From positions 126,501 to 190,500 of the forward strand of contig AP026145.1 in assembly GCA_030295235.1 (NCBI GenBank): 64,000 bases of DNA, given 5' to 3'. This document shows, piece by piece, positions 14,109 to 24,864 of the stretch; the stretch's first letter is position 1; each line of letters begins with the position of its first letter. This stretch comes from Fistulifera solaris (taxonomy: Eukaryota; Bacillariophyta; Bacillariophyceae; Naviculales; Stauroneidaceae). The notes under the pieces were generated by a model. The model ran no database searches and was not told the origin of the DNA. It was given only the letters and a program-made list of their open reading frames with translations. The position numbers and the translations under genes are program-made.

Positions 14109-17100
14109 ATGGAGACTCCTATTTGGGAACAAGCAAAAGAAAACTCTGCTCCTTTAGAAAGAGGTCGCAATGTCGCATTGCTCGAGCAATCGGCGGTCGC
14201 GACGGAAGAGGATCGACGTGAGCTCGAACGCATGTTGCGTCATTACGAAAAATTAGTGCAACAGGACGACGACGATGCCCTCATTCATTGGCTTTCGTAC
14301 ATTAAGTTTCATCAGGAATCATTCCCAGTCGATACTCACGAACAGTTCTTATTGTTAGAGCGCTGTTTTCGAGCTCTGTGTCCCGTCCGCAAGTATGCAA
14401 ATGACTTGCGATTCATTCGCGTTTGCTGTCGTTATGCGGAACAAACGAAACGACCGCGTGAAATATTTCAATATCTGTATCAGCAAAATATAGGAGCGCA
14501 AGTTGCAATCTTCTGGGCGGCTTGGGCTTTTGTGGCGGAGAAAGAGCAGGATTACGCGTTTGCGGACAAGATATTTAACAAGGGTTTGTCCAAAAGGCGG
14601 CGCCTTTGAATTATTTGCAGCAACGACACAAGCAGTTTCAGCGCAGGATGAGTCGGTACTGGCTCAATTCAACCAACAATCAAGATGCCGACGACGATGA
14701 CGATCAGCAAGATGGACGAGGCGTGTTAGGAGGCTTGTCGGAAGATTCGTTTCGTCGCAATGATCGTCGGGCTACATCGAGACCGAATTCGCTGCGGAAT
14801 CCTCGCATGCCTGCGAATACAGCCACTTTGCGACTCGGAGAAGTTCGACTCGAAGTACGTTACAAAGACAGGATGAAAATCAACCATTTGCGATCTATAC
14901 AGAAGATACACAAACAGAAAACGAAGCCTTGAACGATTCCCTAATTGAACCAGACGGCCGAGTTCTAGAAAGCGAAGAGGACCGTCTTAAGGAAAATACT
15001 ATACTTCCAGAACGTTGGAATGAAAGGGGAGCTCTATCTACCAGTCATATATCTTCCACTACTCCTATTCTCTGTGCACCCAAGCAGCCCGTGGCGTTTG
15101 CCGTTTATGTCGATGAAGAATGCGCCGCGCGGCATGAACGCGAGCAAGCTGACAAGCGCCGTGCTATTGAGCGCCATCGCCAAGTCCGCGATGACAGAAC
15201 TTTTAAAGAACGTGGAGTAGATAGCGTAGCCGAACGGCTAACCAACGATCCATTGCGGTATGTGCGAGACCCATCGCAAGTGCAATCCGACCAACCTGTT
15301 CGGCCCGAAGCGCCCTCGCAACTGAAATCACGAGGATTTGACAAGATGCTGCTAAAGAGTCCCTCAGGCGTGGAGCAATGTTTTGAGGAGGCTCGAGTTC
15401 AAGCCAGCTATTTTAAGCTCGTTTCGAGTTGTTCCAATGTGAATTTATTTGCGACGAGTCGTAACAAGGAGCAAAACGACTCGAATATGTCCATGGACGA
15501 ATCTACCAATGCTTCCTATCATTCCATCTCCATTCAATCAGCTTGCGCTACATCAGTGGTAGCTCCGCAAGCCGTCGCTTTCACGCCAGGTTTACAGAAC
15601 CGCCCCACTGACCCAAACGTCACAACAGACAGCGCAACGTCTTCTGTAGCTGTTGGCGGGGTTGCCGATCCGACTATCAATACGCAATTGGCGTTGAGAG
15701 AATTATCAATGATGTTTTCGAGTCCTGCATTTCCGCTAACGGAACGAAGTCGAATCGAAGATCGTTCTGGTGGCTTGGGTCCCATTCTAAACGAATCCGG
15801 TGTCTCGGACTCATGCAATACTTCAGTCATTATTCAGCAAGAAGAAGTGATGGCTGATTGTGATCCAGACTCTTCATTACTTGTCGTAACGGAACCGAGG
15901 ACTGGTTTTGCTATCTTTACAGACGTTGAACACGACGACGTGCCACCGGCGGATCGTGCAACAGCCGTTAAGGAACCTTCGATATTTGCGACTGCCTTTG
16001 AAATCTACACAGATGCTCCCGGAGCGGATACTCGGGTTGAAACAGCACAGGTGCCCGTGTGTAAGAACACCTTGATGCCAAGTCAGGCATTTGATATATT
16101 CATCGATGAGTTACAGCCAGACGCAAGTAGAATGATTTCTAAAGACACCGCTAATGAAGAGCTGCACGTCGATCGAAAAAGAAAAGTGGCGTCTTGGAGC
16201 ATATTGATGAAAGGAGCGATGACTCGAACTCCTGCGACGAAGAGAATGACGGTGACACCGCAACATTTTCTCTTTTTAATGAAGTCGTACAGATGTTGGA
16301 CGATGTGAGCATTGAGGGTGATAGTGACGACTGCAACGGTAAAAGTGAGTAAGTCCATTTTAAACTCGTACTCAAACCATGCTGACATGTGCGTCTTACC
16401 CACTTGTGATGAAACAGATTTAACCAATTTTACTAGCAGCCAGTCAAGGCATTACCCCGCCTCCAATGCTAAGAATATTTTCCCGGACTACGCAAATGTA
16501 TACCAAGATTTGATCAAATCTTCGACGCACCATTTAAAGGCTAATGCAGCATCTCATTTTCCCAATATTCCAGCGCTTACTCGCGTGCTTTCTGAATCGC
16601 AGAAAATTTATGATCTACAAGAGCATGCCTTACCGCGTCCTCTCAAGCGACAGCAAGTAAATCAGGGTGTTGAAATTAGAATTAGTCACAGCTCAGCAAA
16701 GATCGTAGCGGAGCTTGGAAAAGGTTCGTTCGGAAGCGTCGCCTTGCTAGAATCAGAAACATCAGTAAAGATTGCGATCAAATCTCAGGCACCGATCGAC
16801 TGTCTCGCCCTCGAGTTTGAGCTGCTACAAACGGCTAAAAAGCGCATAGGAACGAGTAAGCTCTTCTTTCCTGACCCTTTGTCGCTAATATTCTTTGCGG
16901 ACGGGGCCTTGCTCGCAATGTCTGCTGTGACCACGTCGGGTTTGAATCTTATTGACCTTGTCAATGCTTATACGTTACATGACGAATCCGTGCCAGAGAT
17001 CGTAGTCCTTTACTACACCTCGTTGATGCTTTCATACATTGAAACACTTCACTGGAAGGCGAAAATTTTGGTACGTCTGTCATGCAGGGACGAGTGGGTT

Positions 17101-17714
17101 GCGATTCTATCTCATCTCTCATTTTCTTTGTTCTTGTTGAATAGCATTGTGATGTCAAGCCTGACAACTGGGTTTTATCGCAATCTCATACAATGGCGGG
17201 TGATTCTGTTATTGGATCCGACCTTTGTTTAATCGACTTTGGGCGAGGTATCGATTTGGCTAAAGACGAAGGGCGTGCTGTATTCAGGAGTGACGACAAT
17301 GTGATGAACAAGAGATTCGTAGGACCCTCTTGTGTGAAAGAGATGATGTGTGTCGCGATGAGGAGAGGTCTTCCGTGGTCGTTTGACGCAGACACATTTG
17401 GTATCTGTGCATGCGTTCATGTATTACTTTTTAGCTCGCACATTGAATTGAAGGAAGATAAAAACGGTGATTGGGTTCCAAACGAACCGTTGGAAGGATT
17501 AAAATACGTCACTTTTTGGGATGAGATGTTTCGGACATTGTTAAATCTAGACCCTGAAACACAATTAGCGATTGGGTCACGTCCTCATTCTTTACGCCAG
17601 TTGCGGAAGAAAATAGACAAAGAATGGAGCGACAATTCTGTTCTGCAAAGTGAGCTTCGCCGACAAGCTTCTTTGCTGCCCAGTACGCGAGATGTTATGA
17701 AGGCAAGGAAATAG
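14109..17714 (+). CDS. MadBub: BUB1/BUBR1-type spindle assembly checkpoint kinase with two KEN boxes and five ABBA motifs
   Basis: Acts at kinetochores and in the mitotic checkpoint complex that inhibits APC/C-Cdc20. In order: a KEN box at residues 10-12 (14136-14144), the Mad3/BUB1 TPR domain (about residues 30-165), a second KEN box (14989-14997), five motifs fitting Fx[ILV][FY]x[DE], and a C-terminal BUB1-type kinase. The ABBA-type motifs are at 14887, 15097, 15907, 15997 and 16090. The kinase has GKGSFGSV, IAIK, HCDVKPDN and DFGRG, so it looks catalytically intact. Two introns splice in frame: 16345-16417 (73 nt, donor GTGAGT) and 17071-17144 (74 nt). Three further frame changes, at 14592-14595 (A4), 14871-14872 (GG) and about 16176-16185 (A runs), each correspond to one missing base, and known family motifs continue on both sides. 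KEN boxes plus a kinase on one chain is the undivided MadBub arrangement. The 3' end lies 38 bp from the convergent DnaJ gene. Confidence 0.9.
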
Positions 17715-22322: not shown

Positions 22323-24864
22323 ATGAGATTCTCTGCAGCCGTTTCGATGCTCTTTCTCTGCATCAATCCCCACGAGGGGTTTCAACTTTCAGGAAACTTT
22401 GCTCCTTTTGGGAAGAAAATGGCGGATGGAAAGGGAAGCAGCGCATACCTCGACAATATGAAAGCTTCATCCGCCTATGGAGCGTCCTCGCCGGCGACGC
22501 CCGTCAATGCGTTTGTAGGTGGCGCCGCCAACAACAACCAAGCTTACATTGCTCCTCCCAGTAGCTACAGTCCCTTTGGAAGGAAGATGGCGGACGGAAA
22601 GTCGAGTAGCCCTTACTTGAATGCTGTTGCATCGAATGCACCGACTTCCTCTTCTTACGAATCTTACTCGGCACCTGTCGAGATGCTCTCTGGATCCTCT
22701 CCTGTCGCTCCATCGGCTTCTACCAGTAGCTATTTGAGCAATATGGGAGGTTCGACTGCTGCTACAGCGAAGCCTGGTAACTATTCACCATTTGGTCGCA
22801 AAATGGGCGACGGAAAGTCGTCGAGTTCGTATCTGAACAATGTGGCTGGACCTTCTAAGGCTAGTGGAGGTTACAGTCCCTTTGGTAGGAAAATGGCTGA
22901 CGGAAAATCGAGCAGCCCATACTTGAATAGTGTCGCCTCCGCTACGCCAGCTTCTGCTTCTTTTACGGCACCTGTTGAGACTTCCTCTGAGCCCTCTGCC
23001 GTGGCTCAGTCGGCATCCACCAGCAGCTATTTGAGCAATATGGGAGGTGCCAGTGCTGCTAAAACCAAGCCAGGTAGCTATTCACCATTTGGCCGCAAGA
23101 TGGGGGACGGAAAGTCGTCGAGTTCTTACCTAAACACCGTCTCCGGTCCTTCGAAAGCTAGTGGAGGATACAGTCCCTTCGGTAAAAAAGATGGCAGACG
23201 GCAAATCTAGCAGCCCGTACTTGAATAGTGTTGCATCCGCTGCACCGGCTTCCTCCTCTTTTGAATCTTATTCTTCTCCTGTTCAGGCTTCTGCTCCTGT
23301 TCAAGCTTCTGAGCCTTCTGCCGTGGCTCCGTCGGCTTCTACTAGTAGCTATTTGAGCAGTATGGGAGGTGCCAGTGCCGCCAAGCCTGGTAGTTATTCA
23401 CCATTCGGTCGCAAAATGGGCGACGGAAAGTCATCTAGTTCGTATTTGAACACTGTCGCTGGTCCTTCTAAGGCTAGTGGCGGATACAGTCCCTTTGGTA
23501 GAAAGATGGCTGATGGAAAGTCGAGTAGCCCGTACTTAAACTCTGTTGCATCCGCTGCACCGGCTTCTACTTCTTACGACTTGTATGCAGCTCCCGTTCA
23601 AGCTGCCGAGCCTTCTGCTGCCGCTCCGCCTGCCTCTACCAGCAGCTACTTGAGCAATATGGGAGGTGCCAGTGCTGCAACAAGCAAGCCTGGTAGTTAT
23701 TCACCATTCGGTCGCAAGATGGGCGACGGAAAGTCTTCTAGTTCGTATTTGAACACTGTTTCTGGTCCTTCTAAGACTAGTGGCGGATACAGTCCCTTTG
23801 GTAGAAAGATGGCAGACGGCAAATCTAGCAGCCCATACTTGAATGCCGTTGCTTCCGCCGCTCCGGCTTCTACGTCGTACGATTCGTATGCAGCTCCCGT
23901 TCAAGCTGCTGAGCCTTCTGCTGCCGCCCCGCCTGCCTCTACCAGCAGCTACTTGAGCAATATGGGAGGTGCCAGCGCAGCTACAACTAAGCCAGGTAGC
24001 TATTCACCATTCGGTCGCAAAATGGGAGACGGAAAGTCTTCTAGTTCGTATTTGAACACTGTGGCTGGACCGTCTAAGGCCAGTGGTGCGTACAGTCCTT
24101 TTGGTAGAAAGATGGCTGATGGAAAGTCAAGTAGCCCGTACTTGAATTCTGTTGCATCCGCTGCTCCGGCTTCCACTTCGTACGAATCCTATTCGGCCCC
24201 TGTTCAGGCGTCTGCTCCTGTTCAAGCTTTTGAGCCTTCTGCTACCGCGCCGCCTGCCTCTACCAGCAGCTACTTAAGCAATATGGGAGGTGCCAGTGCC
24301 GCCAAGCCTGGTAGTTATTCACCATTCGGTCGCAAAATGGGCGACGGAAAGTCTTCTAGTTCGTATTTGAACACCGTCGCTGGACCGTCTAAGGCTGGTG
24401 GAGGATTCAGTCCTTTTGGTAGAAAGATGGCTGACGGCAAATCGAGTAGCCCGTACTTGAATGCCGTCGCTTCCGCGGCTCCGGCTTCTACGTCGTTCGA
24501 TTCGTATTCCGCTCCTCCTGCGTCCAGCTACTCTACCACTCCTGTTTCAGCACCACCGTCGGCAGCAACTTACTCGCCAGCCCCTGACGCGTCAGCAAGC
24601 TATGGATCTGCTCCAGCTGCTGCATCTCCATCCGCGCCTGCAACTGCTGCTTCGACTGGTTTTTCATACTTGAATACGTTGGCACCGGCGAATCCAGCTC
24701 CATTCAAGTACGCCCCAATAGACGGAAAGATGGGGGATGCGAGATCGGGAAACAGCTACTTGGATGGCCTTCGCAGCTACCAGCCAGTGTCGAATTCCTA
24801 CGGGTCACTCCAGGACTCGTTCTCAAGTGCTACGGGTGTGAATGAAATGTCTGGACGCCAGTAA
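22323..24864 (+). CDS. Secreted repetitive protein with alternating SPFGRKM-A/G-DGKSS repeats
   Basis: I do not recognise a named family. A short hydrophobic N-terminus (MRFSAAVSMLFLCINP) suggests secretion. The body is about six tandem units of 297-316 nt (about 100-105 residues). Each unit has two related blocks: YSPFGRKMADGKSSSPYLN and YSPFGRKMGDGKSSSSYLN, separated by Ala/Pro/Ser-rich linkers containing SSYLSNMGG. G-block starts are near 22794, 23091, 23407, 23710, 24013 and 24328. A degenerate block begins the array (APFGKKMADG) and another closes it (GKMGDARSGNSYLDGL). The frame breaks at an A6 run (23184-23189) where the other copies have an AGAAAG-type sequence: one extra base inside an otherwise perfect repeat. 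Joined length is about 845 residues. Low complexity and strong repetition suggest a structural, cell-wall or matrix role, which is inference. Confidence 0.8.

Follow-up and report, generated by a model that had tools for sequence, protein, structure and literature searches.

In the MadBub family of checkpoint proteins, a cassette of two ABBA motifs around the second KEN box (ABBA1-KEN2-ABBA2) has been found in virtually all species (Tromer et al., 2016; PMC5204127). In the available portion of that study, ABBA motifs occur in three contexts: repeat arrays, including those of stramenopile MAD proteins, sites near the CMI motif and/or a D-box or KEN box, and the pair around KEN2. The two tryptophans that flank KEN2 are presented there as the defining trait of this box and, as far as the available text goes, not of the whole family. 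The same cassette was described together with a model for the binding of two Cdc20 molecules by Di Fiore et al. (2016; PMC5179498), whose account, in its available part, concerns the cassette only. In animals, the ABBA motif of BUB1 is thought to load Cdc20 next to Mad1 (PMC7614552). The residues named in the CD1 of human BUB1 are Thr461, Ile471, Met474, and Phe475, and the RLK motif of human Mad1 is required for binding to CD1 (PMC5472792). This article concerns a gene of this family, MadBub, located at positions 14109..17714 of a stretch of 64,000 nucleotides (hereafter, the window; contig C21, positions 126501-190500; 46.3% GC), and its second copy, found on contig C22 at position 136137. 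The whole gene and all its features lie on the forward (+) strand of the window. Among the papers listed in searches of the open-licence literature, as judged by titles and the openings of abstracts, no paper on a diatom MadBub or its motifs was found.

The reading preferred here, with a probability of roughly 80%, is that the gene encodes an undivided MadBub of a stramenopile resembling diatoms and having two diverged chromosome sets, in which the cassette would inhibit the anaphase-promoting complex/cyclosome bound to Cdc20 (APC/C-Cdc20), a later array of ABBA motifs would load Cdc20 beside Mad1, and the breaks seen in the reading frame would be mostly assembly errors.

Domain architecture of the gene

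The N-terminal part of the protein is of the Mad3 type. It begins with a KEN1 box (14136..14144, amino acids 10-12), identical in the C22 copy, whose surroundings (WE..KEN..PL..GR) align with KEN1 of BUBR1. This is followed by a TPR domain (Mad3_BUB1_I, PF08311; 14238..14588, E 2.7e-30), which scores 105.2 bits in the window copy and 102.3 bits in the C22 copy (cut-off 31.4) and also matches BUBR1 and Mad3 chains, and then by KEN2 (14989..14997). The C-terminal part is a BUB1-type kinase domain (16681..17711), spread over the end of exon 2, intron 2, and exon 3. Its best structural matches are BUB1 chains (6jkk, E 1.7e-22; 4qpm, E 1.3e-19), its Pfam Pkinase score is 34.7 bits against a cut-off of 31.7, and in the alignment with BUB1 the IAIK lysine, HCDVKPDN, and DFG all fall opposite their counterparts. 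Both ends of the protein agree with those announced in the original prediction of this gene, a reading of the letters of the window, with the precision that HCDVKPDN and DFG are read in this way once an inferred intron of 74 nucleotides is removed.

The gene comprises three exons. Intron 1 (16345..16417, 73 nucleotides) and intron 2 (17071..17144, 74 nucleotides) both run from GT to AG and were inferred from the frame and the splice ends. The C22 copy has 748 codons open from the ATG, running just into intron 1, and contains no breaks in its Mad part. In the window copy, the frame changes between successive regions (KEN1-TPR, what follows the TPR, the linker that holds the motifs, and the FSLFNE stretch), while the kinase is open; the C22 kinase is short of one base at two places. 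Even after splicing, three breaks interrupt the window copy and two the C22 copy as assembled. What was described as "one gene" does not occupy one frame, having three apparent one-base breaks and two introns. Position, together with splice sites present in both copies, suggests that the Mad part and the kinase form one transcript.

The genome searched comprises 51.7 Mb in 61 contigs. A family search in six frames gave four matches: two are the MadBub gene and its counterpart on C22, and the other two are copies of a TPR protein; no second, divided MadBub paralogue is among the four. The homology of the TPR and the kinase, together with this search, supports the proposal that the gene is an undivided MadBub of the ancestral type, with a kinase that looks intact. 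The two copies of the TPR protein (L016, C5:286466-289654; L017, C6:265773-268961) have a TPR resembling Mad3_BUB1_I and were considered as a second MadBub-like gene. This candidate was rejected; the kinase of the C5 copy best matches TTK/Mps1 chains, and in the C6 copy a fragment of the kinase is visible.

C22 is collinear with the entire window, apart from unaligned gaps, and the DNA identity is 82-89% outside repeats. Paired contigs (C1/C2, C3/C4, C5/C6, C40/C41) were also observed for the matches of other genes. Fistulifera solaris has been described as an allodiploid diatom with 42 homoeologous chromosome pairs (PMC5935921; GC contents of 43.6-46.1% in four rows of a table, compared with 46.3% for the window), and the pairing of the contigs and the collinearity of C22 fit a diatom of this kind.

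Between the TPR and the kinase lies a long linker. Its mean TOP-IDP value of about 0.16, compared with 0.03 for the TPR and the kinase, suggests disorder by amino-acid composition alone, and a PDB search with the 500-amino-acid linker part of the C22 copy, up to E 10, gave no match. The linker contains a motif similar to CMI/CD1, the Mad1-binding motif of BUB1: DPTINTQLALRELSMMF (15667..15717, amino acids 521-537) has a threonine, followed by a hydrophobic residue at +10, a methionine at +13, and a phenylalanine at +14, which is the spacing of human BUB1 CD1. The region from amino acid 518 to 545 shows one difference between the copies, at 545.

ABBA motifs of the cassette and the array

The strict ABBA consensus scored was Fx[ILV][FY]x[DE]; the pattern Fx[ILV][FHY]x[DE] is likewise matched six times. 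The original prediction listed five motifs, all of which were recovered in place: FAIYTE (14887..14904), FAVYVD (15097..15114), FAIFTD (15907..15924), FEIYTD (15997..16014), and FDIFID (16090..16107). Its count of five overlooked a sixth strict match, FSLFNE (16266..16283). In the Mad part of C22 the six begin at amino acids 261, 331, 601, 631, 662, and 721, and the window copy has them at the same places. FAIYTE and FSLFNE are identical in C22, where FEIYTD and FDIFID read FKIYTD and FEIFMD.

The five motifs had been placed between the Mad3-type N-terminus and the kinase, three of them near one another in a disordered linker. Two actually belong to the pair that flanks KEN2: with FAIYTE at amino acid 261, KEN at 295, and FAVYVD at 331, the ABBA1-KEN2-ABBA2 cassette is present. 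The remaining three (four with FSLFNE) form a later array. The ABBA2 motif falls within a Pfam match to Cyclin_N2, the APC/C-binding region of cyclin A, with 26.4 bits in the window and 24.0 bits in C22 (cut-off 24).

The six matches in the 748-amino-acid Mad part of C22 are to be compared with a mean of 0.048 and a maximum of 2 in 20,000 shuffles. Over the whole window in six frames, 13 matches to the consensus were found, six of them in the MadBub gene. The published cassette and the conservation of the motifs between the copies support the view that these matches are putative Cdc20-docking sites.

The origin of the array by tandem duplication was also considered, the motifs being spaced 30 and 31 amino acids apart. 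The spacers are no more alike than shuffles (lowest P 0.15 among the pairs of the three array units in either copy), and there is thus no evidence for a recent duplication.

Conservation between the two chromosome copies

The two copies have diverged at a synonymous rate (Ks) of about 0.41. Across the six motifs, every core residue (24 of 24) is identical between them, as are 9 of the 12 free positions; the residues outside the cores, from amino acid 246 onward, are 87.6% identical. Within the three-motif array, 12 of 12 core residues are identical, compared with 65.8% of 73 surrounding positions, a result matched by random placement of the pattern in 1.5% of trials within amino acids 586-690 (p 0.015).

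It might be argued that the array motifs are chance Phe-acidic matches in a loose linker, devoid of any Cdc20 function, and that the pair around KEN2 alone is functional. The array segment does change fast, with an amino-acid identity of 71.8% and a ratio of nonsynonymous to synonymous rates (Ka/Ks) of 0.55, the highest of the Mad-part segments tested, and wider placement controls were not significant (p 0.104 for amino acids 565-748; p 0.078 for all six motifs over amino acids 246-748). This explanation is nevertheless unlikely, given the excess of matches over the shuffles, the fixation of the cores while free positions change (FEIYTD/FKIYTD, FDIFID/FEIFMD), and the position of the array after the CMI-like motif, which is a known context for ABBA motifs (available text of PMC5204127). 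Conservation favours functional motifs, with the modest power of two sequences from one genome. Scans of other genome contigs and of viral contigs gave no orthologue outside this genome.

Ka/Ks is 0.018 in the KEN1-TPR region, 0.07 in the cassette, and 0.07 and 0.31 in the kinase exons (0.07 being exon 2). Calculated on the four stretches delimited by the breaks of the window copy, it takes values of 0.018, 0.135, 0.169, and 0.030. These low ratios on both sides indicate that both halves of the gene were under selection for most of the divergence.

Such values bear directly on the possibility that both MadBub copies are decayed pseudogenes. That the frame of each copy is interrupted in the assembly would agree with decay, but the low Ka/Ks of the KEN1-TPR region, the cassette, and kinase exon 2 would not; moreover, the searches of this genome, which did find other checkpoint genes, gave no other MadBub pair. 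Decay of the pair is hence regarded as highly improbable.

Frame breaks and the integrity of the reading frame

Each break in the window copy appears as a one-base deletion relative to C22: AAAA instead of AAAAA at 14591..14596, TTT instead of TTTT at 14826..14830, and a third at 16174..16176. Apart from one-base indels and those in multiples of three, the copies differ within the gene by a single indel, of 4 bp, located in intron 1.

In order to place these breaks in context, the indels between the window and C22 were counted over an alignment of 52.5 kb, coding context being defined as an open reading frame (ORF) of at least 200 amino acids in either copy with clean flanks; these contexts are predicted ORFs and cover 44.1 kb of aligned columns. 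Among the 63 indels in coding context, 39 were of one base, 14 of three, four of six, and two of four; one each was of 12, 15, 18, and 45 bases, and none was of two. The abundance of one-base indels and the lack of two-base ones in coding context point to sequencing error. The 39 losses are divided between the window (21) and C22 (18), and five fall in the MadBub gene and 34 outside. For the two contigs jointly this amounts to about 0.9 one-base indels per kb of ORF, a rate at which five breaks over the roughly 3.5 kb of the gene are unremarkable. When breaks were counted more coarsely, from translated searches, C22 had 16 over 40.1 kb and the window 14 over 38.8 kb, some of them counted twice and those of MadBub included.

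No support was drawn from two further comparisons. Breaks lay within a 12-nucleotide stretch holding a run of at least three identical bases in 35 of 39 cases, against a chance level of 0.56 from an approximate control. Non-coding indels numbered 46 of one base, 22 of two, and 17 of three without the flank filter; with the same filter only six were left, two of them of one base, which is too few for comparison.

The distribution of the breaks is reciprocal: in the window copy the Mad part has three and the kinase none, while in C22 the kinase has two and the Mad part none. This would be expected if each copy were losing one half, the window copy the Mad part and C22 the kinase, in an early replay of the split of MadBub into Mad3 and Bub1. 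If true, an allodiploid alga would have been caught repeating that split. Such a scenario is considered most improbable, given that other ORFs of the two contigs contain one-base breaks just as often (39 over 44.1 kb, 34 of them outside MadBub), that two-base coding indels are missing, that Ka/Ks remains low before and after the breaks, and that a Cdc20 copy on contig C4 likewise appears broken by one base. Most one-base breaks are probably assembly errors. At about 0.9 frame-breaking indels per kb, the reading of single-frame ORFs in this assembly is unreliable, and single-base errors in it can mimic reciprocal gene decay between homoeologues.

Outside the gene, the window contains a coding-like tandem repeat at 22566-24491, with a period of about 303 bp and 6.3 copies, homoeologous to a repeat ORF of 756 amino acids on C22.

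Partner proteins and proposed mechanism

Several potential partners of MadBub are found in the genome. The best Cdc20 (L018, on contig C3; E 6.8e-128 to CDC20) has retained residues equivalent to Arg262 and Ile280 in the ABBA-binding pocket. Two other Fizzy-type pairs keep the arginine and have Q-Q or P-C at positions 279/280. The pocket mutant is printed as Y179E/I280Q in the available text of PMC5179498; in the CDC20 alignment tyrosine is at 279 and proline at 179, and the position was taken as 279. The genome also encodes a Mad1 pair with the RLK motif, a HORMA protein that is possibly Mad2, and an Mps1/TTK-like kinase.

The residues of these partners and those of the CMI-like motif are the basis of an inferred division of labour, in which the cassette would act in the mitotic checkpoint complex (MCC) and in the inhibition of APC/C, and the array in the loading of Cdc20 next to Mad1. 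In this model, KEN1 and the cassette would form the MCC and keep it attached to APC/C-Cdc20, the task of BUBR1/Mad3. After phosphorylation by Mps1, the CMI-like motif would bind Mad1, and the ABBA array just behind it would hold Cdc20 beside Mad1-Mad2 at the kinetochore, the task of BUB1. The presence of several array sites may raise the local occupancy by Cdc20, with no separate task for each site. Capture of several Cdc20 molecules by avidity, as had been suggested for this protein, is a plausible but hypothetical form of such multivalency. If correct, the division between cassette and array in one protein would allow the roles on the APC/C and at the kinetochore to be asked about separately.

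A number of observations weigh against this interpretation. At the position of Tyr279 in the ABBA pocket, L018 has a histidine. KEN2 has one tryptophan only, on its C-terminal side (PERW; window 14989-15020), and departs in this from the two-tryptophan trait. The CMI-like motif has no PDB match. A GLEBS-like stretch at 15328..15426, a candidate Bub3-binding site, has no Pfam match to GLEBS in either copy. The loose stretch directly before the kinase has a Ka/Ks of 0.38, and the whole comparison rests on two copies from one genome. To these are added the fast-changing array segment, the weaker results of the wider placement controls, and the interrupted frames of both assembled copies, all detailed above.

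With regard to Cdc20 itself, the C4 counterpart of L018 (L023, C4:1057382-1061101) has a frame apparently broken near the end of the WD40 region, which is likely another assembly error. Cdc20/Fizzy-like WD40 genes, together with fragments of such genes, were also observed in clusters on C34 (~125-143 kb), C35 (136-190 kb), C17 (229-290 kb), and C18 (161-213 kb), besides three better-kept Cdc20/Cdh1-type pairs among the matches listed. One member, L024, lacks all three of the ABBA-pocket residues that were compared. This Cdc20-like family is either expanded and partly decaying or broken by assembly errors.

Comparison with known systems

The novelty implied by the original prediction does not hold, as stramenopile MAD arrays, ABBA motifs near CMI, and the cassette are all present in the available text of PMC5204127; the motif layout described here is thus to be expected for this lineage. 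In another diatom, Seminavis robusta, the gene Sro690_g187690 is given as BUB1 in one paper (PMC7296067) and as MAD3 in another (PMC8027222), and in the available parts of both it is named alongside MAD2 and CDC20. Such double naming is what would be expected of an undivided diatom gene. Sro690_g187690 is probably an undivided MadBub too.

The comparison of the original prediction with animal BUBR1, said to have only a few such motifs, was incomplete, given that the array sits after the CMI/CD1-like motif as the ABBA motif of BUB1 does. Human BUBR1 shares the order KEN1-TPR-ABBA-KEN2-ABBA and a downstream ABBA motif (272, 340, and 528 in the available text of PMC5179498), whereas the present gene has catalytic residues in its kinase, a CMI-like Mad1 site, and six ABBA matches rather than three. 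With human and yeast BUB1 it shares the succession of a CD1/CMI-like motif, ABBA, and kinase; unlike them, it also has the Mad-side elements, KEN1 and the cassette, in a single gene, and its ABBA motif is repeated. The N-terminal region of cyclin A (Cyclin_N2) shares the motif only, and MadBub is not a cyclin. The closest systems are the undivided MadBub proteins of other eukaryotes which, as far as the available sources describe them, have the same KEN1, TPR, cassette, CMI-like motif, ABBA near CMI, and kinase. Compared with them, the protein described here has a KEN2 without the tryptophan on the N-terminal side, a GLEBS unrecognised by Pfam, four ABBA matches after the CMI-like motif, and two diverged chromosome copies in one genome. 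As read from its sequence, the gene stands as a solid further example of an established design, conserved between two copies.

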